A DNA stretch of 64,000 nucleotides, from assembly GCF_014489115.1 (NCBI RefSeq), contig NZ_JACTAH010000001.1:992001-1056000 (forward strand), given 5' to 3'. The notes below the pieces were generated by a model, which worked only from the letters and a program-made list of their open reading frames with translations, did not search any database and had not been told where the DNA came from. The DNA comes from Thauera sedimentorum (lineage in GTDB: Bacteria > Pseudomonadota > Gammaproteobacteria > Burkholderiales > Rhodocyclaceae). The position numbers and the translations under genes were made by a program. Below, one piece after another: positions 38,906 through 58,685 of the stretch (position 1 is its first letter; every line of letters begins with the position of its first letter).

Positions 38906-38962
38906 GACGTGATCGACCGTGAAGACGGAGGGCGCGTGGCCGCGTATGGTAGCAAGCCGTGC

Positions 38963-38991
38963 TGTAATGTTCCGCGCCGCTGCCGCGACTG
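38963..38991 (+). promoter_or_regulatory. ECF-type promoter of arsS
   Basis: GCTGTAATG (TGTAATG at 38963-38969), a 16-bp spacer and CGACTG (38986-38991), 29 bp before the arsS ATG. It matches the elements found upstream of the ECF sigma gene, the bufferin operon and the TVP38-FAD operon. Confidence 0.55.
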
Positions 38992-39020: not shown

Positions 39021-40025
39021 ATGCACGCCACCTTGCCCCTGCTCCGGCAGACGGATTTTCCGCCGCTCGCGCGCGACACCCTGCAGACCCTGCAGGTCAA
39101 TCTCGGCTACCGCTGCAACCAGAGCTGTGTGCACTGCCATGTGAACGCCGGCCCCAAGCGCACCGAGGAGATGAGCGGCGAGACGGTGGATGCGCTGCTC
39201 GCCTTCCTCGATGCCAGCCCTCGGGTGAACACCCTGGACCTCACCGGCGGCGCCCCCGAACTGAACCCGCACTTCCGCCGCCTGGTGGTGGCTGCGCGCG
39301 CCCGCGGCCTGCATGTGATCGACCGCTGCAACCTCACCATCCTGTACGAGTCGGGGCAGGAGGGGCTGGCCGAGTTCCTCGCCGACCACCGCGTCGAGGT
39401 GGTCGCCTCGCTGCCCTGCTACCTGGAGGACAACGTCGACCGCCAGCGCGGCAAGGGCGTGTTCGCCACCAGCATCCGCGCGCTGCGCCGGCTCAACGAA
39501 CTTGGCTACGGGCAGGCCGGCGGCGAGCGCGTGCTGTCGCTGGTGTACAACCCGCAGGGCCCCAGCCTGCCGCCGCCCCAGGCGGCGCTGGAGGCGGCCT
39601 ACCGCGAGCATCTGGGCGAAGAGTTCGGCATCGTGTTCACCCGCCTGTTCACCCTGGCCAACATGCCCATCCAGCGTTTCGGCTCGATGCTGGTCAGCAA
39701 GGGCGAGTTCAACCGCTACCTGGACCTGCTGCGCGGCGCGCACCGCGACGAGAACCTCGCCGGGGTGATGTGCCGCAGCCTGGTGAGCGTGGACTGGCAG
39801 GGCTATCTGTACGACTGCGACTTCAACCAGCAGCTCGGCCTGCCCTTGGCCGCGCCGGACGGCAGCCCGCGCCTGCACATCACCCAGGCCACCGCTGCGG
39901 CCCTGGCCGGCCTGCCGATCCGGGTGGCGGCGCATTGCTGGGGCTGTACCGCGGGGCAGGGCTCGAGTTGCGGCGGCGCGCTGGACGACGGTACGGCCGC
40001 CGCCCCGGCCTGTGGCACGCGCTGA
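39021..40025 (+). CDS. arsS: Arsenosugar biosynthesis radical SAM protein ArsS
   Basis: 334 residues from ATG 39021, preceded by ACAGGAGACCC. The radical SAM cluster motif is NLGYRCNQSCVHCHVNAGPKR (CxxxCxxC), followed by LDLTGGAPELNPHFRRLV. The C-terminal DUF3641-type domain has further Cys pairs (MCRSLVSVDWQGYLYDCDFNQQLGL and HCWGCTAGQGSSCGG). ArsS attaches a 5-deoxyadenosyl group to dimethylarsenite as an early arsenosugar step. It is followed by a degenerate glycosyltransferase and a dehalogenase. No arsM methyltransferase was seen in the window. Confidence 0.93.
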   Translation: MHATLPLLRQTDFPPLARDTLQTLQVNLGYRCNQSCVHCHVNAGPKRTEEMSGETVDALLAFLDASPRVNTLDLTGGAPELNPHFRRLVVAARARGLHVIDRCNLTILYESGQEGLAEFLADHRVEVVASLPCYLEDNVDRQRGKGVFATSIRALRRLNELGYGQAGGERVLSLVYNPQGPSLPPPQAALEAAYREHLGEEFGIVFTRLFTLANMPIQRFGSMLVSKGEFNRYLDLLRGAHRDENLAGVMCRSLVSVDWQGYLYDCDFNQQLGLPLAAPDGSPRLHITQATAAALAGLPIRVAAHCWGCTAGQGSSCGGALDDGTAAAPACGTR

Positions 40026-40058: not shown

Positions 40059-40718
40059 ATGAGCGCACCCCACGCTGACTGTGCCCCTGCGCCCGGCCGT
40101 GAGGACGGGCCTGCGCCGCGCCTCGCGGTGCTGCTGCCGATCGCGCAGGATGCCGCACGGGGCTACGCGCAGCTGCGCCTGATGGCACCGCTGCGCCGCT
40201 GCGGCGTGGAGCTGATCGCCACCACGGCCGACGCCGATGCGGGGGCCGTGCCGGTGCTGCGCCACATGGCCTCGCGCCTGCTCACCGTGCCGGGGGCGCT
40301 GCCCGCCCAGTACAACGCCGCGGCGGCCTTTGCGCGCGCCGACACCCTGCTTCTGCTGCCGGAAGGCGTGCTGTTGCCGTCCTTCGCCGATCAGCTGGTG
40401 GAGCGCGCGCTGGAGCAGGCCGGTAGCGACTGGGGCTGGTTCGACATGCGCTGCACCCGGGCGCTGAGCGGCTTGCTGGTCACTGCCTGGATCGGGCTGC
40501 GGGCGAGCTGGCGTGCCGGCCTGCACCGCACGCATCCGCTGTTCGTGCGCCGCAGCGCCTTCATGGCGGTGGGGGGCGTGCCGTCCGACGCGGCCTGCGT
40601 GCCCGCGGCCCTGGCGCGGCGGCTCGGGGCCTCGGCCCGCAGGCCGGTGCGCATCCGCACGCCTGCGCTCGCAGGCTATCGCTGGGTGGTCGAGCCCGCA
40701 GCGTTCGGCACCCGATGA
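40059..40718 (+). CDS. Degenerate TIGR04283-like glycosyltransferase
   Basis: 219 residues. It aligns along much of its length with the intact arsenosugar-type glycosyltransferase at 55466: PAQYNAAAAFARADTLLLLP matches SQMNAGAREASGRVLLFLH, GSDWGWFDMRC matches GREWGRFDVDI, and AFMAVGGVP matches AFDAVGGYP. However, the nucleotide-sugar-binding HADT is replaced by PEGV, the early VADGGSTD motif is missing, and the GDQ motif is lost (HPLFVRRSAFMA). The frame is intact, so it is not an obvious pseudogene; it may be non-catalytic or decaying. It sits right after arsS, where such a glycosyltransferase is often found. Confidence 0.65.
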   Translation: MSAPHADCAPAPGREDGPAPRLAVLLPIAQDAARGYAQLRLMAPLRRCGVELIATTADADAGAVPVLRHMASRLLTVPGALPAQYNAAAAFARADTLLLLPEGVLLPSFADQLVERALEQAGSDWGWFDMRCTRALSGLLVTAWIGLRASWRAGLHRTHPLFVRRSAFMAVGGVPSDAACVPAALARRLGASARRPVRIRTPALAGYRWVVEPAAFGTR

Positions 40719-40732
40719 TGAAGGAGAAGGCG

Positions 40733-41413
40733 ATGAAGCTCGAAGGAATCCAGGCTTGCGTGTTCGATGCCTATGGCACGCTGTTCGATGTGGCCGCGGT
40801 GGCGCGCGGCGCGGACGAGGCGCTGGGCGAGCATGCCCGCGCAATCGTGGAGCTGTGGCGCGCGAAGCAGCTGCAATACACCTGGCTGCGCGGACTGGCC
40901 GGGCACCATGCGGACTTCTGGCAGGTCACCGAAGACGCGCTGGGCTTTGCGCTGGCCAGCCATGGACTGGACGACGCGGCGCTGCGCGAACGCCTGATGG
41001 CCTGCTACCTGCGCATTCCGGTTTATCCCGAGGTGCCGGATGTGCTGCACAGGCTGCGCGCCGCGGGGATGAAGCTGGCCATCCTGTCCAACGGCACGCC
41101 GGCGATGCTTGAATCGGCGGTGGCGCACGCGGGGCTCTCGGACTGTTTCGACGCCGTGCTCTCGGTGGAGGCGGTGGGCGTGTTCAAGCCGCATCCCTCG
41201 GTCTACCGGCTGGGCGAGCAGGCCCTGGGCCATCCTGCGCAGGCCATGTGCTTCGTCTCTTCCAATGGCTGGGATGCCTGTTCGGCCCGGGCCTACGGCT
41301 ACCGGGTGATGTGGTGCAACCGCTTCGGCCAGCCGGCCGAGCGCATCCCGGCCGAGCCGGACGGCATGCTGCCGGATCTGAACGGACTGCCAGCGGTGCT
41401 GGGAGTGGCTTAG
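40733..41413 (+). CDS. (S)-2-haloacid dehalogenase, type II
   Basis: 226 residues from ATG 40733, which has AAGGAG 6 bp upstream; ATGs at 40715 and 40718 would lie over that site. L-DEX signatures are all present: nucleophile Asp in FDAYGTLFD, LAILSNGTPAML, the Lys in VFKPHPSVY, and the hallmark FVSSNGWDACSARAYGYRVMWCNR. It hydrolyses short 2-haloacids to 2-hydroxyacids by an Asp ester intermediate. It probably shares a transcript with arsS and the degenerate glycosyltransferase. Its end is 5 bp from the end of the convergent anti-sigma gene. Confidence 0.93.
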   Translation: MKLEGIQACVFDAYGTLFDVAAVARGADEALGEHARAIVELWRAKQLQYTWLRGLAGHHADFWQVTEDALGFALASHGLDDAALRERLMACYLRIPVYPEVPDVLHRLRAAGMKLAILSNGTPAMLESAVAHAGLSDCFDAVLSVEAVGVFKPHPSVYRLGEQALGHPAQAMCFVSSNGWDACSARAYGYRVMWCNRFGQPAERIPAEPDGMLPDLNGLPAVLGVA

Positions 41414-41418
41414 GCTGC

Positions 41419-41655
41419 TCAGGCCTCGTCCGTCTTCCGGTTCCCGCCAGCCGCGGAGCGGGCCTCGTCGCGCGCCGCCAGTTCGCCATGCGCGAAGCGC
41501 GTCGTCATGCGGCGGATGAAGGCCATCTGCTCCTGGTAGTTGCTGCACCCGGAGCACATCATCAGATGCATGCGCAGGGTGAGCCGCTCGCGCAGGGCGA
41601 GCTCGCGGTCCAGCGCTTCGGAGCACAGGCGGGTGGCTTCCTTGCAGTTCAGCAT
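41419..41655 (-). CDS. Zinc-finger (zf-HC2) anti-sigma factor
   Basis: 78 residues from ATG 41655, overlapping the sigma factor stop by 7 bp. [44 protein letters not shown] carries the HxxxCxxC motif of zinc-binding anti-sigma (ZAS) domains. There is no membrane segment, so it is a soluble anti-sigma factor, probably sensing metal or thiol stress through its zinc site and releasing the partner ECF sigma factor. Confidence 0.9.
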
Positions 41656-42287
41656 GTGCGGCACGCTCCCTTGACGAACCAGTTGCTCTCCAGGCAGCCG
41701 CGCAGGCCGGTGCGGGCGCGGTGCAGGATGACGTGGCAGTTGTTCGCGGTGATGCCCAGTTCGGTGCAGATCTCCGCGGTTTCCAGCCCGAGCATCTCGC
41801 GCATCATGAACACCCGCGCGATGTTCTCCGGCAGGTGATCCAGGCAGGCTTCGAACACCGCCCAGAACTGCTTGTTCTCCAGCGATTCCTCCGGCGCCGC
41901 CCAGGCCGCCGGGCGGCAGTCCGGGTGCCAGTGGCCATTGGCGCGGAACAGGGCGTCGATGGCGCCGTCCTCGTCCTCGCTCTCGCCGTTGCTGCCGATG
42001 ACCGTGCTCAGCGCAGGCGAGCGGCTGCCGCGGCGCAGGATGTCCACGATCTTGTTGCGCAGGATGCCGAACACCCAGGTCTTCAGCGCGGCCGTGCCGG
42101 CATAGCTGGCGGCATTCACCAGGGCCGCCTCGATGGCCTCCTGGACGGCGTCCTCGGCCAGCTCGGCGTCGCGCAGTTGCAGGCGGGCGAAGCGCAGCAT
42201 GTCCTGATGCAGGGCGGCGAGCCGGACCGGGTCGGACAGTTGCTGGGCTGCGCTCGCATGCGGCTCGGTGGCTTGGGCGCCGGTCAT
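41649..42287 (-). CDS. ECF RNA polymerase sigma factor
   Basis: 212 residues from ATG 42287, preceded by ACAGGAGATTCC. Region 2 is [57 protein letters not shown]; region 4 is [52 protein letters not shown]. An insertion of about 50 residues ([35 protein letters not shown]...) separates the two regions. It is co-transcribed with the zf-HC2 anti-sigma gene and divergent from the bufferin operon. A TGTAAGG-N16-CGACAT element before it indicates auto-regulation. Confidence 0.94.
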
Positions 42288-42396
42288 GGAATCTCCTGTG
42301 GACGGATCGGGTGTGCGGCCGCATTCCGGGGCGACATGTGCTGGCCCGCAGATGGTAACGCAGCCGGGCGGGGGCGACGCCGCGGCACCGCCGGAC

Positions 42397-42425
42397 ATGT
42401 CGCACGAGCTGCCCGGAACCTTACA
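42397..42425 (-). promoter_or_regulatory. ECF-type promoter of the sigma factor operon
   Basis: On the minus strand GCTGTAAGG (TGTAAGG at 42425-42419), a 16-bp spacer and CGACAT (42402-42397), about 110 bp before the sigma gene ATG. It faces the bufferin promoter, and the two TGTAAGG boxes form an inverted pair 57 bp apart. Confidence 0.6.
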
Positions 42426-42482
42426 GCACACATGCGCCGCAGCGCGATCCGGCGCGCGACCGGAAGAATTTCCGCAGGTCGC

Positions 42483-42510
42483 TGTAAGGAAGTGGCCGCA
42501 GCGACGACAC
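42483..42510 (+). promoter_or_regulatory. ECF-type promoter of the bufferin operon
   Basis: GCTGTAAGG (TGTAAGG at 42483-42489), a 15-bp spacer and CGACAC (42505-42510), about 70 bp before the precursor gene. The 294-bp region between the sigma gene and the precursor gene holds these two divergent promoters and no other recognised feature. Confidence 0.6.
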
Positions 42511-42581
42511 AGCCCATGCAAGCACACCGGCACCCGCCGGCGCGCCTGCACCCATCCCGGATCACCCACAAGGAGAGACAC

Positions 42582-42890
42582 ATGAACCGCACCGCTACCC
42601 GCCAGGCCACCGCCGCCGCCCTCGCGCTCGCCCTCGGCGCAGCACTCAGCATGTCGGCCGTGCCCGCTGCGGCGGCCGATGCCGACAAGGAAAAATGCTA
42701 CGGCGTGTCGATGAAGGGCAAGAACGACTGCGCCGCCGGCCCCGGCACCACCTGCGCGGGAACGTCCAAGATGGACTACCAGGGCAACGCCTGGAAGTAC
42801 GTGGCCAAGGGCTCCTGCGAGCAGATGAAGTCGCCGACCTCGCCCACCGGCCAGGGCCAGCTCGAAGCCTTCCAGGAAAAGAAATCCTGA
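42582..42890 (+). CDS. bufA1: Bufferin-type RiPP precursor (DUF2282)
   Basis: 102 residues from ATG 42582, preceded by AAGGAGAGACAC. An unusually long signal peptide covers residues 1 to about 32 (ending [10 protein letters not shown]). The mature peptide has four Cys at 39, 50, 58 and 79 in the family contexts [22 protein letters not shown] and GSCEQM. DUF2282 proteins have been described as precursors of bufferins, copper-sequestering peptides whose Cys are modified by a DUF692 (MNIO) enzyme before export by the general secretion route. The following genes are exactly that enzyme, its partner and a DoxX protein. Confidence 0.88.
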
Positions 42891-42913: not shown

Positions 42914-43801
42914 ATGTCCACGGCCATCCATCCCGCCACGCATGCCGCGGGCGCAGCCGCGCTGCCGCCGCGGGCGGGTCTGGGGCTCAAGCCGGCGCAT
43001 GTCCGGCAGATCCTCGAGACCCGCCCGGCGGTGGGCTTCTTCGAAGTGCACGCCGAGAACTACATGGTCCCCGGCGGGCCTTTCCATGAACACCTGGGCC
43101 GTATCCGCGCCGACTTTCCGCTGTCGGTGCATGGCGTGGGGCTGTCGATCGGCGGGGAGGAGCCGCTGGACGAGGCCCATCTCGACCGCCTCGCGGCGCT
43201 GCTCGAGCGCTACGCGCCGCAGGCCTTCTCCGAGCACCTCGCGTGGTCCGGTCACGGCGGGGCCTTCTTCAACGACCTGCTGCCCCTGCCGTACACGCCG
43301 GCCACGCTCGCCCGCGTATGCGCGCATGTCGACCGCGTGCAGGAGCGCCTGCGCCGGCCGATGCTGCTGGAGAACCCGGCGACCTATGTGGAATTCGCCG
43401 AGTCCACGCTCGCCGAGACCGAGTTCATCGCCGAGGTGGTGCGCCGCACCGGCTGCGGTCTGCTGCTGGATGTGAACAATGCCTACGTGTCCTGCGTGAA
43501 CCACGGGCGCGAGCCGCGCGCCTACCTGCAGGCCCTGCCGCTTGCCGCGGTGGGCGAGATCCACCTGGCCGGTTTCGCCCGCCAGATGGACGCCGCCGGC
43601 GACGAGCTGCTGATCGACAGCCACGGCTCGCCGGTGGACCGCGCGGTGTGGGCGCTCTACGAGTTCGTGCTGGCACGGCTCGGCCCCACGCCGACGCTGA
43701 TCGAGCGCGACAACGACATTCCGCCCTTCGACGTGCTGCTGGGCGAGGCCGCCGAGGCCGGGCGCCTGCTCGCCGCGGTGCGCAGCGAGGTGACGGCATG
43801 A
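42914..43801 (+). CDS. bufB: DUF692 / MNIO-family RiPP-modifying oxidase (BufB)
   Basis: 295 residues from ATG 42914. It is a TIM-barrel multinuclear non-heme iron oxidase family member: [87 protein letters not shown] and [15 protein letters not shown] contain the His, Asp, Glu and Asn positions that bind the irons. It is expected to convert Cys residues of the precursor to heterocycles such as thiooxazole. Its TGA overlaps the next ATG. Confidence 0.92.
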
Positions 43802-44574
43802 GCGGCCAGGCCGGGTTCGCCGCCGCGCTGCTCGACGCCGGATTGCCCTGCCCGGACGGGCTGGTGGCGTGGAACGGCTCGGACCCCGCGCGGCGCTTCG
43901 CGGTGTATCGCAACAACGTGGTGGTGTCGCTGGTCGATGCGCTGGCAGAGGCTTTCCCGGTGGTGCATGCGCTGGTCGGCGGCGAGTTCTTCCGCGCCAT
44001 GGCGCAGGTCTTCGTCACCACGCGGCCGCCGCGCTCGCGCCTGCTGGCCTTCTACGGCGAGGGCTTCGCCGATTTCGTCGCCGCCTTCCCGCCGGCCGCG
44101 GAGCTGCCCTGGCTGGCCGACGTGGCGCGTCTGGAGATGCTGCGCGTGCGTGCCTACCACGCGGCCGATGCCGAGGCGCTGCCGCAGGCCGCCATCGGCG
44201 CGCTGCTGGCCGACCCGGCGCGCCTGCCGGGGGCGGGCTTCGGCCTTCATCCGGCGCTCGGCGTGCTGCGTTCGGCGCACGCGGTGGTGGATCTGTGGGC
44301 GGCGCACCAGGTCGATGCCCCGGACCTCTCCGGGCTGGACCCGGCGCGCCCGCAGGCCGCCCTGGTGATGCGCGAGCAAGATGCGGTGACGGTGACGGAA
44401 ATCCCCGTGCCGGCCGCAGCGTTCGTCGAATGCCTGCAGACCGGTGCGAACCTGGGTGAGGCCCTGGACGCGTGCAGCGCGCACGGGGGCTTCGACCCCG
44501 CAGCGGCGCTGGGCGCGCTGCTGCGGGCGCAGGCCATCGTGTCGATCCGCGAAGGAGACAAGGACCATGAATAG
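43798..44574 (+). CDS. bufC: DUF2063 partner protein (BufC)
   Basis: 258 residues from ATG 43798 (4-bp overlap with bufB). The N-terminus [68 protein letters not shown] is the DUF2063 domain, and [24 protein letters not shown] lies just after it. These proteins form a complex with MNIO enzymes and help bind the precursor leader. The end overlaps the DoxX gene by 8 bp. Confidence 0.92.
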
Positions 44575-45097
44575 TCGAACCGATGCAGCGGCTGCGACAG
44601 TTACGCCGTCGGTCGGGCCGGCCGCCCTGGTGCGCCGTTTCGTGGCGCTGTGCGAGTGCGTGCCGCATGCGCTGATCGCCTTCCTCGGACGCTTCTCGAT
44701 CGCCGCGGTGTTCTGGCAGTCCGGGCAGACCAAGGTCGAAGGGCTGGCGATCAACCTGGTCGCGGGCGAGTTCACCCTGGGCTGGCCGCGCCTGTCCGAC
44801 ACCGCGGTGTTCCTGTTCCGCGAGGAATACCGGTTGCCGTTGATCGCGCCGGAGATTGCCGCGCCGCTGGCGGCCTTTGCCGAGCACCTGTTTCCGCTAT
44901 TGCTGCTGCTCGGCCTGGCGACGCGCTTCTCCGCGCTGGCCCTGCTGGTGATGACGGCGGTGATCCAGCTGCTGGTCTATCCGGGGGCCTATCCCACCCA
45001 CGGCGTGTGGGCGGCGGTGCTGCTCTACCTGCTGGCGCGCGGGCCGGGCCGGCTGTCGCTGGATCACTGGATCGCGCGCCGCGCCGGCGGCGCCTGA
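44567..45097 (+). CDS. DoxX-family membrane protein
   Basis: 176 residues from ATG 44567, preceded by GAAGGAGACAAGGACC. Four membrane segments: LIAFLGRFSIAAVFWQSGQTKVEG, APLAAFAEHLFPLLLLLGLAT, RFSALALLVMTAVIQLLVYPG and HGVWAAVLLYLLARGPG. DoxX proteins are common fourth members of DUF2282/DUF692/DUF2063 operons; a redox role in the membrane is likely but not defined. Confidence 0.9.
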   Translation: MNSRTDAAAATVTPSVGPAALVRRFVALCECVPHALIAFLGRFSIAAVFWQSGQTKVEGLAINLVAGEFTLGWPRLSDTAVFLFREEYRLPLIAPEIAAPLAAFAEHLFPLLLLLGLATRFSALALLVMTAVIQLLVYPGAYPTHGVWAAVLLYLLARGPGRLSLDHWIARRAGGA

Positions 45098-53119: not shown

Positions 53120-53232
53120 GGGTCGCTGTTTCTTTCCGGTCTGAGGGAGAAGACCCGCGTCATGCGTCGATGACAGACGGGCTTGCCGCCGGCATGGCCG
53201 GCGCACGGTGGCGCAAGAATACCCCGGCTTGC

Positions 53233-53261
53233 TGTAACGTATCCGCCTGTCGCGACGACAA
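53233..53261 (+). promoter_or_regulatory. ECF-type promoter of the TVP38-FAD operon
   Basis: GCTGTAACG (TGTAACG at 53233-53239), a 16-bp spacer and CGACAA (53256-53261), 41 bp before the ATG. It matches the elements at 38963, 42397 and 42483. Confidence 0.55.
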
Positions 53262-53302: not shown

Positions 53303-55462
53303 ATGCACTCGAAACGTCTGCTGATCCTTGCGGTATTGCTTGCAGCCATCGCGCTGTTCTTCGCGCTCGACCTCGGCCAGTACCTCACGCTGGAGGCCTT
53401 CAAGACCCGTCAGGCGGAGATCGAGGCCTGGCGGGCGGCCAATCCGTGGCTGGCCGCGGGGGTGTTCTTCGCGGTGTATGTGGCGGTCACCGCGCTGTCG
53501 CTGCCCGGCGCGGCGGTGATGACGCTGGCGGTGGGGGCGGTGTTCGGGCTGCTGTGGGGCACCTTGCTGGTGTCCTTCGCGTCCACCATCGGCGCCACGC
53601 TGGCCTTCCTGGTCTCGCGCTTCCTGCTGCGCGACTGGGTGCAGGCGCGCTTCGGCGAGCGTCTGCGGGCGGTCAACGCCGGGGTGGAGAGGGACGGCGC
53701 CTTCTATCTGTTCACCCTGCGCCTGGTGCCGCTCTTTCCCTTCTTCGTCATCAACCTGGTGATGGGGCTCACGCCGATGCGCGCGCGCACCTTCTACTGG
53801 GTGAGCCAGCTCGGCATGCTGGCCGGCACCGTAGTGTATGTGAATGCCGGCACCCAGCTCGCGCAGATCGACTCACCCGCCGGCATTCTGTCGCCCGGCC
53901 TGCTCGGCGCCTTCGTGCTGCTGGGGGTGTTTCCGCTGCTCGCGCGCAAGGCGGTGGACTGGGTGCGGGCGCGCCGGGTGTATGCCGGCTGGCTGCGCCC
54001 CTCGCGTTTCGAGCGCAACCTGGTGGTGATCGGCGCCGGCAGCGCCGGGCTGGTGACCGCCTACATCGCCGCCGCGGTGAAGGCCAAGGTGACCCTGGTG
54101 GAGAAGCACCGCATGGGCGGCGACTGCCTGAACACAGGCTGCGTGCCGTCGAAGACGCTGATCCGCAGCGCGCGCCTGGTCGCCGAACTGCGCCGCGCGG
54201 GCGAGTTCGGCATCGAGGCCGGTACGCCGCGGGTGGACTTCGCCGCGGTCATGGAGCGCGTGCAACGCGTGGTGCGCGCGATCGAGCCGCACGACTCGGT
54301 GGAACGCTATACCGGGCTGGGCGTGGAGGTGCTGCAGGGCGAGGCGCGCATCGTCTCGCCCTGGGAGGTCGAGGTGCGCGACGCGGAAGGCGGCGCGCGC
54401 CGGCTGAGTACGCGCAGCATCGTCATCGCCACCGGGGCGCGGCCTTTCGTGCCGCCGATACCCGGGTTGGCGGAGACGGGTTATCTGACCTCCGATACCG
54501 TGTGGTCCCTGCGGGAACTGCCGGCGCGCCTGCTGGTGCTGGGCGGCGGGCCGATCGGCTGCGAGCTCGCCCAGGCCTTCGCGCGGCTTGGTTCGCAGGT
54601 CGCCCAGGTGGAGATGCTGCCGCGCCTGATGGCGCGCGAGGACGAGGAGGTTTCGGCGCTGGTCGAGGAAGGCTTCCGTGCCGAGGGCATCGCGCTCTAC
54701 CTGCAGCACGAGGCGGTGCGGGTGGTGGCGGATGCGCAGGGCAAGCGCATGGTGGTGCGCGACCTTTCGCGTGACGGCGCCGAGGCCGAGATCGCCTTCG
54801 ACGCGGTGCTGGTTGCGGTGGGCCGCGCCGCCAACCTCAAGGGTTATGGGCTGGAGGAACTGGGCATTCCCGCCGGGCGCACGGTGGAGGTGAACGAGTT
54901 CCTGCAGACCAGGTATCCGAACATCTACGCCGCCGGTGACGTGGCCGGTCCCTACCAGTTCACCCACACTGCGGCGCACCAGGCCTGGTACGCGGCGGTC
55001 AATGCGCTGTTCGATCCGCTGAAGAAGTTCCGCGCCGACTACTCGGTGATCCCCTGGGCCACCTTCACCGACCCTGAGGTCGCGCGCGTCGGCCTGAACG
55101 AGCAGGACGCCAAGGCCGCCGGCGTGAAGTATGAAGTCACCCGCTACGGCATCGACGACCTCGACCGCGCGATCGCCGAGGGGGCGGCCGAAGGCTTCGT
55201 CAAGGTGCTCACCGAACCGGGGCGCGACCGCATCCTCGGTGCGACCATCGTCGGCGCACACGCCGGCGAGCTGATTGCCGAGTTCGTGCTGGCGATGCGC
55301 CACCGCATCGGTCTGAACAAGCTGCTCGGCACCATCCACATCTACCCGACGATGGCCGAGGCCAACAAGTACGCCGCCGGCGCGTGGAAGCGCGCGCACG
55401 CCCCGCAGCGCCTGCTCGCCTGGGTGGCGCGTTTCCACGCCTGGCGGCGCGGGAGCGCCTGA
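53303..55462 (+). CDS. TVP38/TMEM64 membrane domain fused to mercuric-reductase-like FAD disulfide oxidoreductase
   Basis: 719 residues from ATG 53303. Residues 1-235 form a TVP38/SNARE-associated membrane domain (LPGAAVMTLAVGAVFGLLWGTLLVSFASTIGATLAFLVSRFLLRDW ... FTLRLVPLFPFFVINLVMG). From about residue 240 comes a flavin disulfide reductase: FAD motif LVVIGAGSAGLVTAYIAAA, redox-active GGDCLNTGCVPSKTLIRSA, NAD motif LLVLGGGPIGCELAQAF, YAAGDVAG and the C-terminal HIYPTMAEA. The mercury-binding N-terminal HMA domain and the C-terminal Cys pair of MerA are absent. It is probably a membrane-bound redox enzyme for thiol or metal stress. It heads an operon with two arsenosugar-type glycosyltransferase genes. 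Confidence 0.9.
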   Translation: MHSKRLLILAVLLAAIALFFALDLGQYLTLEAFKTRQAEIEAWRAANPWLAAGVFFAVYVAVTALSLPGAAVMTLAVGAVFGLLWGTLLVSFASTIGATLAFLVSRFLLRDWVQARFGERLRAVNAGVERDGAFYLFTLRLVPLFPFFVINLVMGLTPMRARTFYWVSQLGMLAGTVVYVNAGTQLAQIDSPAGILSPGLLGAFVLLGVFPLLARKAVDWVRARRVYAGWLRPSRFERNLVVIGAGSAGLVTAYIAAAVKAKVTLVEKHRMGGDCLNTGCVPSKTLIRSARLVAELRRAGEFGIEAGTPRVDFAAVMERVQRVVRAIEPHDSVERYTGLGVEVLQGEARIVSPWEVEVRDAEGGARRLSTRSIVIATGARPFVPPIPGLAETGYLTSDTVWSLRELPARLLVLGGGPIGCELAQAFARLGSQVAQVEMLPRLMAREDEEVSALVEEGFRAEGIALYLQHEAVRVVADAQGKRMVVRDLSRDGAEAEIAFDAVLVAVGRAANLKGYGLEELGIPAGRTVEVNEFLQTRYPNIYAAGDVAGPYQFTHTAAHQAWYAAVNALFDPLKKFRADYSVIPWATFTDPEVARVGLNEQDAKAAGVKYEVTRYGIDDLDRAIAEGAAEGFVKVLTEPGRDRILGATIVGAHAGELIAEFVLAMRHRIGLNKLLGTIHIYPTMAEANKYAAGAWKRAHAPQRLLAWVARFHAWRRGSA

Positions 55463-55465
55463 GGC

Positions 55466-56161
55466 ATGGCGGCGGCGCTGTCCATCATCCTGCCGGTGCT
55501 CGACGAGGCCGCGGGCATCGAAGCCTGCCTCGCCCGCCTGCAGGCGCTGCGCGCGCGCGGCGTGGAGGTGATCGTCGCCGACGGCGGCAGCACGGACGAC
55601 ACCCTGCGCCTGGCCCGCCCGCTGGCCGACCGGGTGGTGGCGGCGCCGCGCGGGCGCGCCAGCCAGATGAACGCCGGCGCACGCGAGGCGAGCGGCCGGG
55701 TGCTGCTCTTCCTGCATGCCGACACCGCACTGCCCGAGGCGGCCGACCGCCTGATCGCCGGCGCGGTGGGGGCAGGGCGCGAGTGGGGGCGCTTCGACGT
55801 GGACATCGTCGGCCGCCACCGCATGCTGCCGGTGATCGCCGCGCTGATGAACTGGCGCTCGCGCCACACCGGCATCGCCACCGGCGACCAGGCCATCTTC
55901 GTCACCCGCAAGGCCTTCGACGCGGTGGGCGGCTATCCGGACATCGCGCTGATGGAAGACATCGCGCTGTCGCGCGCACTGCTGCGGCGTTCCGAACCCG
56001 CCTTTATCGCCGCCCGCGTTCACACCTCCGGCCGCCGTTGGGAGCAGCACGGCGTGTGGCGCACCATCTGGCTGATGTGGCGCCTGCGCGCGGCCTACCG
56101 CCTGGGGGCGGACCCGGCCGAACTGGCGCGGCGCTACGGCTACCGGCCGCGCGAGGAGTAA
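55466..56161 (+). CDS. TIGR04283-family arsenosugar-type glycosyltransferase
   Basis: 231 residues, family 2 glycosyltransferase fold. MAAALSIILPVLDEAAGIEACLARL, EVIVADGGSTDDT, the DxD-like FLHADTALP and FVTRKAFDAVGGYPDIALMEDIALSRALLR match the TIGR04283 group linked to arsenosugar synthesis. It starts 3 bp after the TVP38-FAD gene. The paralogue after arsS (40059) has lost the key motifs seen here, so this is probably the working copy. Confidence 0.9.
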   Translation: MAAALSIILPVLDEAAGIEACLARLQALRARGVEVIVADGGSTDDTLRLARPLADRVVAAPRGRASQMNAGAREASGRVLLFLHADTALPEAADRLIAGAVGAGREWGRFDVDIVGRHRMLPVIAALMNWRSRHTGIATGDQAIFVTRKAFDAVGGYPDIALMEDIALSRALLRRSEPAFIAARVHTSGRRWEQHGVWRTIWLMWRLRAAYRLGADPAELARRYGYRPREE

Positions 56162-56164
56162 CCG

Positions 56165-56806
56165 GTGACGGTAGAAGCCCCCATCGTTCACATCGCCGTC
56201 TTCGCCCGCGCCCCGTTGCCGGGGCAGGCCAAGACCCGGCTGATCCCGGCGCTCGGCGCGGCGGGCGCGGCACGCCTGCACCGCCGCCTGGTGCTGCATG
56301 CGCTGGCGGCCGCGCGGGCCGCGGCGCTGGGGCCGGTGACGCTGTGGTGCGCGCCGGATGCCGGGCAGCGCTTCTTCCGCGCGCTGGCCCGCCGCGGGGT
56401 GAACTGCCGGGTACAGGCCGCGGGCGACCTGGGCGCACGCATGCGTGCGGCGCTGCAGGCCACGCCGCCCGCGCCGACCTTGCTGATCGGCAGCGACTGC
56501 CCGGCGCTCGAACCCGCACACTTGCACGCGGCGGCCGACTGCCTGCGCCGCGGCGACGACGCGGTGTTCCTGCCTGCCGAGGACGGCGGCTACGTGCTGG
56601 TGGGGCTGGCCGGTGAGGCGCCGGCCGCCCTGTTCGAGGACATGCCCTGGGGCGGCGACCAGGTGATGGCCGAAACCCGAGTCCGCCTGCAGGCTGCCGG
56701 CCTGCGCTGGAGCGAACCGGCCCGCCTGTGGGACGTGGACCGGCCGGGGGATCTGGCGCGTCTGGCGGAGCTGGAGGCCGTGCGCGCGGAAGGAGCTTGC
56801 ACATGA
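56165..56806 (+). CDS. TIGR04282-family arsenosugar-type glycosyltransferase / nucleotidyltransferase-like
   Basis: 213 residues from GTG 56165 (VTVEAPIVHIAVFARAPLPGQAKTRLIPALGAAGAARLHRRL), 3 bp after the previous gene. APLPGQAKTRLIP, TLLIGSDCPALEPAHLHAA and FLPAEDGGYVLVGL are characteristic of this DUF2064/TIGR04282 group, a GT-A fold often paired with TIGR04283 proteins. The exact reaction is not established. TGA overlaps the next ATG. Confidence 0.9.
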   Translation: MTVEAPIVHIAVFARAPLPGQAKTRLIPALGAAGAARLHRRLVLHALAAARAAALGPVTLWCAPDAGQRFFRALARRGVNCRVQAAGDLGARMRAALQATPPAPTLLIGSDCPALEPAHLHAAADCLRRGDDAVFLPAEDGGYVLVGLAGEAPAALFEDMPWGGDQVMAETRVRLQAAGLRWSEPARLWDVDRPGDLARLAELEAVRAEGACT

Positions 56807-57546
56807 ACGGACGAGGGCTCATCGGCGCGATCCTCTTGGTGCTGTCCGCCACCGCGCTGGCGCAGGCGCCGCCGGCCGTGATCGCACCGTTCTCGCTTGC
56901 CGCCCCCGGCGCTACCCCGCCGGCACCCTGGCAGCATCAGCCGCTGCCCAAGGTCGAGCGCGAGAACCGCTTCACCTTGGTCGAGGACACCCCCGGCGGC
57001 CGGGCGCAGACCGTGTTGCGCATCGATTCCGAAGCCGCCGCCTCCACGCTGGCCCATCCGCTGTCCGTCGATCCGGGCGAGCGCCCCTGGCTGAGCTGGC
57101 GCTGGAAGGTGTCGGCGCCGGTGGCCGGCTCGGACTTCCGCCGCAAGGAGGGCGACGACTACGCAGCGCGGGTGTATGTGCTGTTCGACTATCCGGTGGA
57201 ACGCCTGTCCTTCGGCGAACGCGCCGCGATTGCCCTGGCGCGCGTGCTGCACGGCGCCGAACTGCCCACCGCGGCGCTCGCCTACGTGTGGGGTACGGCG
57301 CAGGCGGCCGGGGCGATCGGCCCCAATCCCTACACCGACCGGGTGCGCATGGTGGTGGTCGACAGCGGCGCGGTGCGCGCCGGGCAGTGGGTGGGCGTGC
57401 GGCGCAACGTCGCCGAGGACTTCCGCGCCGCCTTCGGCGAGGAGGCCCCGCCCATCACCGGCATCGCCGTCGCTGCCGACACCGACAACACTGGCGAGGC
57501 GGTCACCGCCTGGTTCGAGGACCTGCGGCTCGAGGCCGCGCGATGA
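56803..57546 (+). CDS. DUF3047 domain secreted protein
   Basis: 247 residues from ATG 56803 (ATGA overlap), with signal peptide (MNGRGLIGAILLVLSATALAQA). The DUF3047 core includes NRFTLVEDTPGGRAQTVLRIDSEAAASTL, WLSWRWKVS, DDYAARVYVLFDYP, TAALAYVWGT and VAADTDNTGEAVTAWFEDL. It is periplasmic with unknown function; the beta-sandwich-like sequence suggests ligand or carbohydrate binding. Co-transcribed between a glycosyltransferase and a flavoprotein. Confidence 0.85.
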   Translation: MNGRGLIGAILLVLSATALAQAPPAVIAPFSLAAPGATPPAPWQHQPLPKVERENRFTLVEDTPGGRAQTVLRIDSEAAASTLAHPLSVDPGERPWLSWRWKVSAPVAGSDFRRKEGDDYAARVYVLFDYPVERLSFGERAAIALARVLHGAELPTAALAYVWGTAQAAGAIGPNPYTDRVRMVVVDSGAVRAGQWVGVRRNVAEDFRAAFGEEAPPITGIAVAADTDNTGEAVTAWFEDLRLEAAR

Positions 57547-58685
57547 AGCGCCTGGTGCTGCTCGGGGGCGGCCATGCGCATGTATACGTGCTCGATCGCC
57601 TGGCCCGGGAAAGGCTCGCGGACACCGAGGTGGTGCTGGTTTCGCCCTACGCGCGCCAGGTGTACTCGGGCATGTTGCCCGGCTGGATCGCCGGCCGCTA
57701 CGCGCTGCGCGACTGCGTGCTGCCGCTCGATGCGCTGGCTGACCGCGCCGGCGTGCAGCGGGTGGAGCAGGCCTGCGTGGCGCTGGATGTTGACGCCCGC
57801 GAGCTGAGGCTGGCCGACGGCAGCCGGCTCGGCTTCGACCTGCTGTCCATCGATGCCGGCCCGGCCACCGACATCGCGGCGCTGCCGGGTGCGGCGGAGC
57901 ATGCGCTGCCGGTGCGCCCGATCGAGACCTTCATCGCCGCCATCGACGGCTGGCTGGACGCCTATGGCCGTGGCGAGGCGGGTGATCTGGCCATCGTCGG
58001 CGGCGGTGCCGCCGGGGTGGAACTGGCCTTCGCGCTGGACGCACGCCTGCGCGCCCTGGGCCTGCGCGGCGCGGCCGGCAGCGGGCCGGCCTTGCGGGTG
58101 ATCGGTGGCGCAGTGCGACCGCTCGCCGGCCTGCCGCGCGTGCTGCAGTGGCGGGCGGCGGCGCTGCTGCGCGCGCGCGGCATCGAATGGCTGGGCGGGC
58201 GGCGGGTCGAGGCGGTGGGCGCCGGATTCGTGCGCCTGGACGACGGCCGCGAACTGCCCGCACGCCACACCCTGCTGGTCACCGGCGCGGCGGCCCATCC
58301 CTGGCTGGCGGCCAGCGGGCTGGCGGTGGACGAGGGCGGCTTCGTGCGCGTGTCGCGCAGCCTGCGGTCCTTGTCACATCCGGCGGTGTTCGCCGCCGGC
58401 GACTGCGCCGCCTACGCCGACGCACGCCCCAAGTCCGGCGTCTATGCGGTACGCGCCGGCCCGCCGCTGGCGGAAAACCTGCTGCGCGCGCTGCGCGGCG
58501 AAGCGCTGGAAGACTGGACCCCGCAGCGCCGCGCGCTCTACCTGATCAACACCGCGGACGGCAGCGCGCTTGCGGCCTGGGGCGCGCTGGCCTGGTGGGG
58601 CGGCTGGGTGTGGCGCTGGAAGGACCGCATCGACCGCGCCTTCATGGCGCGCTTCACGCCGGACGGCGATCCGCCATCCGTGTAG
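57543..58685 (+). CDS. NDH-2-like FAD-dependent oxidoreductase
   Basis: 380 residues from ATG 57543, overlapping the DUF3047 stop (ATGA). FAD motif RLVLLGGGHAHVYVLDRLA, NAD(P)H motif LAIVGGGAAGVELAFALDARL and the second FAD motif HPAVFAAGDCAAY. GGGHAHVYVL and YSGMLPGWIAGRY place it in the group resembling the flavoprotein domain fused to some SelD proteins. It probably passes electrons from NAD(P)H to a quinone or another acceptor. Its TAG stop falls in GTGTAGGAGCG, a REP remnant. It overlaps the convergent PLP gene by 32 bp. Confidence 0.87.
   Translation: MKRLVLLGGGHAHVYVLDRLARERLADTEVVLVSPYARQVYSGMLPGWIAGRYALRDCVLPLDALADRAGVQRVEQACVALDVDARELRLADGSRLGFDLLSIDAGPATDIAALPGAAEHALPVRPIETFIAAIDGWLDAYGRGEAGDLAIVGGGAAGVELAFALDARLRALGLRGAAGSGPALRVIGGAVRPLAGLPRVLQWRAAALLRARGIEWLGGRRVEAVGAGFVRLDDGRELPARHTLLVTGAAAHPWLAASGLAVDEGGFVRVSRSLRSLSHPAVFAAGDCAAYADARPKSGVYAVRAGPPLAENLLRALRGEALEDWTPQRRALYLINTADGSALAAWGALAWWGGWVWRWKDRIDRAFMARFTPDGDPPSV

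Follow-up and report, generated by a model that had tools for sequence, protein, structure and literature searches.

Bufferins are copper-buffering peptides, and bufferin-type operons are already known, together with methionine sulfoxide reductases, as targets of sigma factors in Neisseria, Haemophilus and Caulobacter. As described in those portions of the published reports on which our comparisons draw, σE of Neisseria meningitidis acts on msrAB and on the DoxX operon to which it belongs, from promoters with a −35 box of GTMAGBWTT, a spacer of 12-13 and a −10 box of CGTCTAAH, and MseR needs Cys4, Cys34 and Cys37, but not His30, for full activity (PMC2893595). In Haemophilus influenzae, RpoE2 has msrAB, MtsZ and a DoxX/DUF2063 operon as targets (PMC7907618), and in Caulobacter crescentus σF controls the DUF2282/DUF692/DUF2063 operons CC2907-2905 and CC3254-3257 along with the YedY gene CC2748, the σF gene and its neighboring CC3254 operon having a promoter motif in common (PMC3511200). 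A DUF2063/DoxX-type operon, gigPABT, also lies divergent from the ECF sigma and anti-sigma genes rpoQ-rsqA of Cupriavidus metallidurans, where it is induced by copper (PMC10304878). Sigma factors in Buf1 clusters are noted in a survey of MNIO clusters, whose text does not use the word "promoter".

Comparison with these systems points to the same logic in the 64-kb stretch of DNA analyzed here (the window), with a CGAC −10 box, a sigma factor of family TIGR02943 and an ArsS/TVP38 arm; the box and the arm look new within the literature searched, and the arm is not seen in the portion of the neisserial report used. The ECF sigma gene (41649-42287, minus strand) scores 253.7 bits with NCBIfam model TIGR02943 (cut-off 162.2) and encodes the Pfam domains Sigma70_r2 and Sigma70_r4_2. 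Overlapping it on the same strand is the gene for a zinc-finger anti-sigma factor (41419-41655; NF052368, 79 bits against a cut-off of 50; zf-HC2) with cysteines at positions 4, 11, 34 and 37 and histidines at 30 and 56. The locus shares with neisserial σE/MseR (NMB2140-2145, msrAB) both the pairing of an ECF sigma factor with a small ZAS anti-sigma factor and the residues Cys4, His30, Cys34 and Cys37; the DoxX operon and the methionine sulfoxide reductase genes, targets in Neisseria, are candidate targets here by the motif before them. Haemophilus RpoE2/HrsE is alike in having a small ZAS anti-sigma factor beside its ECF sigma factor, and its msrAB and DoxX/DUF2063 targets have counterparts among the candidate targets here. 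In contrast to the zf-HC2 protein of the window, the negative regulator CC3252 of Caulobacter is a DUF1109 protein (NrsF) with six transmembrane segments, and RsqA of C. metallidurans is predicted to be membrane-bound.

Divergent from the sigma gene, on the plus strand, lie genes for a bufferin precursor (42582-42890; Pfam DUF2282, 86.9 bits, with only 27.4 bits in the NCBIfam BufA2 model, under its cut-off of 60), the MNIO bufferin maturase BufB (42914-43801; NF050167, 386.7 bits, cut-off 310), a DUF2063 partner protein of the BufC/HvfC type (43798-44574; Pfam DUF2063) and a DoxX-family membrane protein (44564-45097; Pfam DoxX). The NCBIfam HvfC and HvfX models both stay under cut-off in this operon; with DUF2282, BufB, DUF2063 and DoxX all present it is, judged by its predicted products, a bufferin-type cluster. 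The arrangement resembles that in C. metallidurans, whereas in Neisseria the sigma gene and the DoxX genes share a single operon.

The 294-bp gap between the two start codons (42288-42581) had been described in a first-pass annotation as carrying the same two-box element on both strands, at plausible distances from the starts, and our reading of the sequence agrees. Facing the sigma ATG at 42287 is a minus-strand copy, GCTGTAAGG-N16-CGACAT; the plus-strand copy, GCTGTAAGG-N15-CGACAC (42481-42510), faces the DUF2282 ATG at 42582. The two candidate ECF promoters are exact matches to GCTGTAAGG-N16-CGAC (42399-42427, minus strand, toward the sigma and anti-sigma genes) and to GCTGTAAGG-N15-CGAC (42481-42508, plus strand, toward the bufferin operon), and the end of CGAC lies 111 and 73 bp, respectively, from the start codon. 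Set against the neisserial consensus GTMAGBWTT-N12/13-CGTCTAAH (PMC2893595), the spacing is equal and the boxes are nearly so. The −10 box is CGTCTAAH there and CGAC here, CGAC having been required by the search pattern; when CGWC was admitted behind a −35 box of TGTAAG, CGTC was added at only two places in the source genome, both in coding-like ORFs. The σF promoter of Caulobacter, GTAACC-N16-CGAA, differs from the TGTAANG-N15/16-CGAC of the two sites here. Within the parts of the sources used, no promoter motif is given for Haemophilus RpoE2, whose autoregulation is weak, and a sigma-dependent promoter is not shown for C. metallidurans.

Four matches to GCTGTAANG-N15/16-CGAC occur in the window, whereas 100 dinucleotide shuffles gave a mean of 0.00. 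The third candidate promoter, GCTGTAATG-N16-CGAC (38961-38989, plus strand), stands 31 bp before the ATG at 39021 of a radical SAM protein named ArsS (39021-40025; TIGR04167, DUF3641; 445.3 bits, cut-off 300). Behind arsS, on the same strand, follow a divergent TIGR04283-like glycosyltransferase gene (40059-40718; 44.8 bits, under the cut-off of 182) and a HAD-family hydrolase gene (40715-41413; haloacid dehalogenase type II, TIGR01428, 220.5 bits, cut-off 125.4). The fourth, GCTGTAACG-N16-CGAC (53231-53259, plus strand), is 43 bp from the ATG at 53303 of a gene fusing a TVP38/VTT membrane domain to a MerA/Lpd-like flavoprotein (53303-55462, plus strand; Pfam VTT_dom, Pyr_redox_2), and co-directional genes for TIGR04283, TIGR04282, DUF3047 and TIGR03169 (SelD-associated oxidoreductase) proteins occupy 55466-58685. 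The TIGR04283 protein encoded at 55466-56161 scores over the cut-off of its model, the one between arsS and the HAD hydrolase gene far under it.

These two copies had been proposed to extend the pair in the divergon to a regulon motif; both were confirmed, and further sites were found elsewhere in the genome. TGTAANG-N15/16-CGAC matches six times in the 3.96-Mb genome, against eight times for the reversed control. The fifth site is 32 bp before DUF1223-msrB-msrA (DUF1223, 171.9 bits, Pfam; MsrB, 145.5 bits against a cut-off of 113; MsrA, 194.6 against 108), and the sixth is 30 bp before msrP (464 bits, cut-off 207), MsrP being the protein also named YedY. All six sites lie 30-111 bp before a start codon when the starts are those supported by homology and ribosome-site-like sequence; an ORF listing by farthest upstream start put four of the six inside genes. 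Of the eight reversed-control matches, judged by ORF composition alone, seven fall inside coding-like ORFs (five called by filter, two on looser inspection) and one just beyond an ORF end. Occurrence at random density inside genes, which would have spoken against a regulon, is not what the six sites show. Raw genome-wide counts do not set the motif apart from chance, since they do not exceed those of the reversed control (5 versus 5 for GCTGTAANG-N15/16-CGAC, 6 versus 8 for TGTAANG-N15/16-CGAC), and we dropped them as proof. Position, clustering (four of the five matches to GCTGTAANG-N15/16-CGAC fall within 14.3 kb) and conservation do separate it from chance. The looser TGTAAG-N16/17-CGWC, which the arsS and TVP38 sites of the window do not fit, gave 8 matches in the same genome and 16 for its control. 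Four of the eight are the sigma, bufferin, DUF1223-msrBA and msrP sites; the other four, three in coding-like ORFs and one upstream of the ribosomal protein S6 gene, were kept out of the regulon.

As a whole, these observations are very probably best explained by the motif being the promoter of the TIGR02943 sigma factor, which would be held by its anti-sigma factor and direct an envelope-stress regulon of six targets. TGTAANG-N15/16-CGAC would be the −35/−10 promoter recognized by the sigma factor encoded at 41649-42287, and the zinc anti-sigma factor encoded by the overlapping gene, presumably a sensor of redox state or metal, would keep it inactive until copper, thiol or oxidative stress in the envelope, the likely inducing signals, released it. 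The freed sigma factor would then transcribe its own operon, the bufferin operon, arsS-glycosyltransferase-HAD, the TVP38-flavoprotein/glycosyltransferase operon, DUF1223-msrB-msrA and msrP. This reading draws on evidence at the level of sequence, namely the motif, its positions, the gene identities, conservation and the co-occurrence of motif and sigma factor; we infer the operon extents and the chemistry of the ArsS arm. It offers a regulon that can be tested for TIGR02943, a sigma family known in NCBIfam by number only, and would link bufferins with the repair of methionine sulfoxide in this bacterial family, as is the case in Neisseria, Haemophilus and Caulobacter. A radical SAM cluster whose annotation is doubtful would also come under this control, which suggests copper, hypochlorite and thiol oxidants as inducers for a search for its product.

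We examined the association of motif and sigma factor across 199 genomes of the family, 93 of which have a TIGR02943 match over cut-off. In these relatives the unit often reads TGTAAGGA...CGACYAA and measures 26-27 bp between T and C, and the strict motif used for them, TGTAAG-N16/17-CGACYAA, has no match in the source genome itself. It occurs at 110 sites in the 93 sigma-bearing genomes versus 13 in the 106 sigma-lacking ones, and at least one site is present in 51 of the 93 versus 10 of the 106 (Fisher odds ratio 11.7, p = 2e-12; because relatives share ancestry, this and the other p values overstate independence and are too small by an unknown factor). The reversed control is evenly spread (30 versus 31 sites in 24 versus 29 genomes, p = 0.87). 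No strict site was found in the remaining 42 of the 93 sigma-bearing genomes. Two of the 110 sites (in G007 and G050) sit inside the sigma gene and are not promoters, the positions of the other 108 having been checked in part. Of the 10 sigma-lacking genomes in which strict sites occur, two (G015 and G132) hold, on the contig of those sites, a relative that is truncated or scores under cut-off, so the label "sigma-lacking" depends in part on threshold and assembly. Among the best 80 of 148 sigma loci, those of the Burkholderia sigma relatives showed almost no site of this pattern.

In other genomes the −35/−10 unit stands in front of bufferin operons, arsS, and TVP38-flavoprotein and DUF3047 genes, among others. 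Homologues of bufA follow the motif at 11 loci (L006, L009, L012, L052, L074, L080, L083, L153, L180, L241 and L248), with CGAC as the −10 box on the bufA side, or CGTC at L083, and TVP38-FAD homologues follow it at L160, L162, L163, L225, L226, L227, L229 and L231. At L153, L154 and L180 arsS and the bufferin operon diverge from each other with a motif on each side, that on the arsS side of L154 being of the TGTAAT form. We read 29 of the 30 strict-motif loci returned from relatives (L251 was left out), five of them from genomes without TIGR02943 over cut-off (G015, G100, G111, G123 and G153). Within ∼0.5 kb downstream these loci have TVP38-FAD (five), bufferin genes (four, two of which have only 36% identity to BufB), MsrP (three), ArsS (two), and DUF1223, MsrB-MsrA and a TIGR04283-like glycosyltransferase (one each); eight are unnamed, and four more were read, from sequence alone, as a membrane protein, a thioredoxin-like protein and two small secreted peptides rich in Cys.

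ArsS, too, follows the sigma factor. It scores over cut-off in 53 of the 199 genomes, 42 of the 93 that bear the sigma factor and 11 of the 106 that lack it (p = 2.5e-8), and in 17 of the 42 genomes that have both, no more than 15 kb separates arsS from the sigma gene. We looked for TGTAAN-N16/17-(CGAC/CGTC/GGTC) in the 200 bp upstream of arsS in 52 of the 53 ArsS genomes, leaving out G192, where the contig begins just before arsS. This looser motif is present in 35 of 41 sigma-bearing genomes, the source genome included, versus 3 of 11 sigma-lacking ones (p = 4e-4), and in 3 of 52 on the opposite strand and 0 of 52 for the reversed pattern. It is absent before arsS in six of the 41 (G174, G028, G121, G079, G070 and G008), and the two weakest sigma matches are those of G028 and G070. 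In G174, a genome of the same genus as the window, arsS (L164) lies beside GT2 and T1 homologues without the motif, and the sigma/bufferin divergon (L197) has it. At L148, L150, L156 and L161 (genus g60) and L171, L174 and L175 (genus g50), GGTC replaces CGAC before arsS with spacing unchanged, which suggests, from sequence comparison, a lineage-specific shift of −10 specificity.

These data also bear on whether some of the sites, those before arsS and TVP38 above all, are read by another ECF sigma factor, leaving the divergent sigma/bufferin pair as the sole true target. The three sigma-lacking genomes that keep the motif before arsS (G009, G037 and G049) agree with such a division. At 1e-15 TIGR02943 has no match in G009 and G037, and its matches in G049 are all far under cut-off; for these genomes, as for the 10 with strict sites, either another sigma factor can read the motif or the assemblies are incomplete. 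The window sites are likewise TGTAATG before arsS and TGTAACG before TVP38 rather than TGTAAGG. However, both motif abundance and ArsS follow TIGR02943, and TGTAAGG or TGTAAGA stands before arsS and TVP38 at equal spacing in many relatives, and we regard a second sigma factor as improbable. Less probable by a clear step is that a repressor or activator uses the boxes as its operator and the promoter is an ordinary σ70 one. The part of the C. metallidurans report used here describes rpoQ-rsqA as dependent on the main sigma factor RpoD (PMC10304878), but the boxes and the unit length of 26-27 bp match the neisserial σE consensus, and orientation and start-codon distance fit a promoter. A chance occurrence, which would accord with raw genome counts no higher than those of the reversed pattern, is scarcely credible for six sites that all lie 5′ of coherent genes, four of them within 14.3 kb, and are conserved in relatives.

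With the sites read as promoters of the TIGR02943 sigma factor, the product of the ArsS arm remains to be considered. The arsenosugar pathway needs the arsenite methyltransferase ArsM to supply methylated arsenic. ArsM (NF008823) is over cut-off in none of the 53 ArsS genomes, and relatives under cut-off occur in 15; in the source genome, no NF008823 match at E ≤ 1e-40 appeared among the 12 of 26 first-look candidates that were scored, and the window has no ArsM-like methyltransferase beside arsS. In 8 of the 15 genomes (G137, G167, G019, G066, G044, G041, G113 and G177) the sub-cut-off ArsM-like gene adjoins arsS, so a divergent methyltransferase may take part there. Five ArsM-like matches (in G053, G071, G121, G132 and G142) contain a single in-frame TGA, which could be a selenocysteine codon or mark a broken gene. 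On this distribution the arsenosugar label of the ArsS arm appears weak here. If the arm is controlled together with bufferins and Msr enzymes, it may act in redox or soft-metal defense of the envelope. We tentatively propose, with rather less than even confidence, that the ArsS/TIGR04283/04282/TVP38-flavoprotein/DUF3047/SelD-associated oxidoreductase cluster is a conserved arm of an envelope copper and oxidative-stress regulon that includes bufferins and Msr, and that its product would serve periplasmic redox or soft-metal defense instead of dedicated arsenic handling. No precedent for a link of ArsS to an ECF sigma factor or to bufferins was found in the open-access literature searched.

The divergon had originally been interpreted as an autoregulated ECF sigma factor driving the bufferin operon. 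Comparative evidence supports this for the window, since motif abundance tracks TIGR02943 over the 199 genomes as its reversed control does not, and since the six sites precede coherent genes, with msrBA and msrP being target types known for related sigma factors. Autoregulation is not general, however, as only 11 of 129 scanned sigma loci (duplicates included), from eight distinct genomes counting that of the window, have a site in the 350 bp before the sigma gene. The sigma-upstream site of L006, a near relative, differs from that of the window at 3 of 30 bases, and L008, L009, L083, L120, L122 and L146 have other motif forms in this position.

The motif also occurs inside the sigma gene at 11 of the 129 loci (L020, L051, L052, L074, L080, L123, L130, L135, L138, L140 and L159), in every case in frame 0 over one conserved peptide, which resembles CKE...S-P/T-T-N. 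An internal promoter before the anti-sigma gene was rejected as an explanation, the in-frame position over a conserved peptide probably making this a coding coincidence. Just 3′ of the motif at L228 (G137) and L230 (G044) are small, secreted-looking peptides with Cys repeats of the NPCA type, which from their sequences are candidate metallophore or RiPP precursors.
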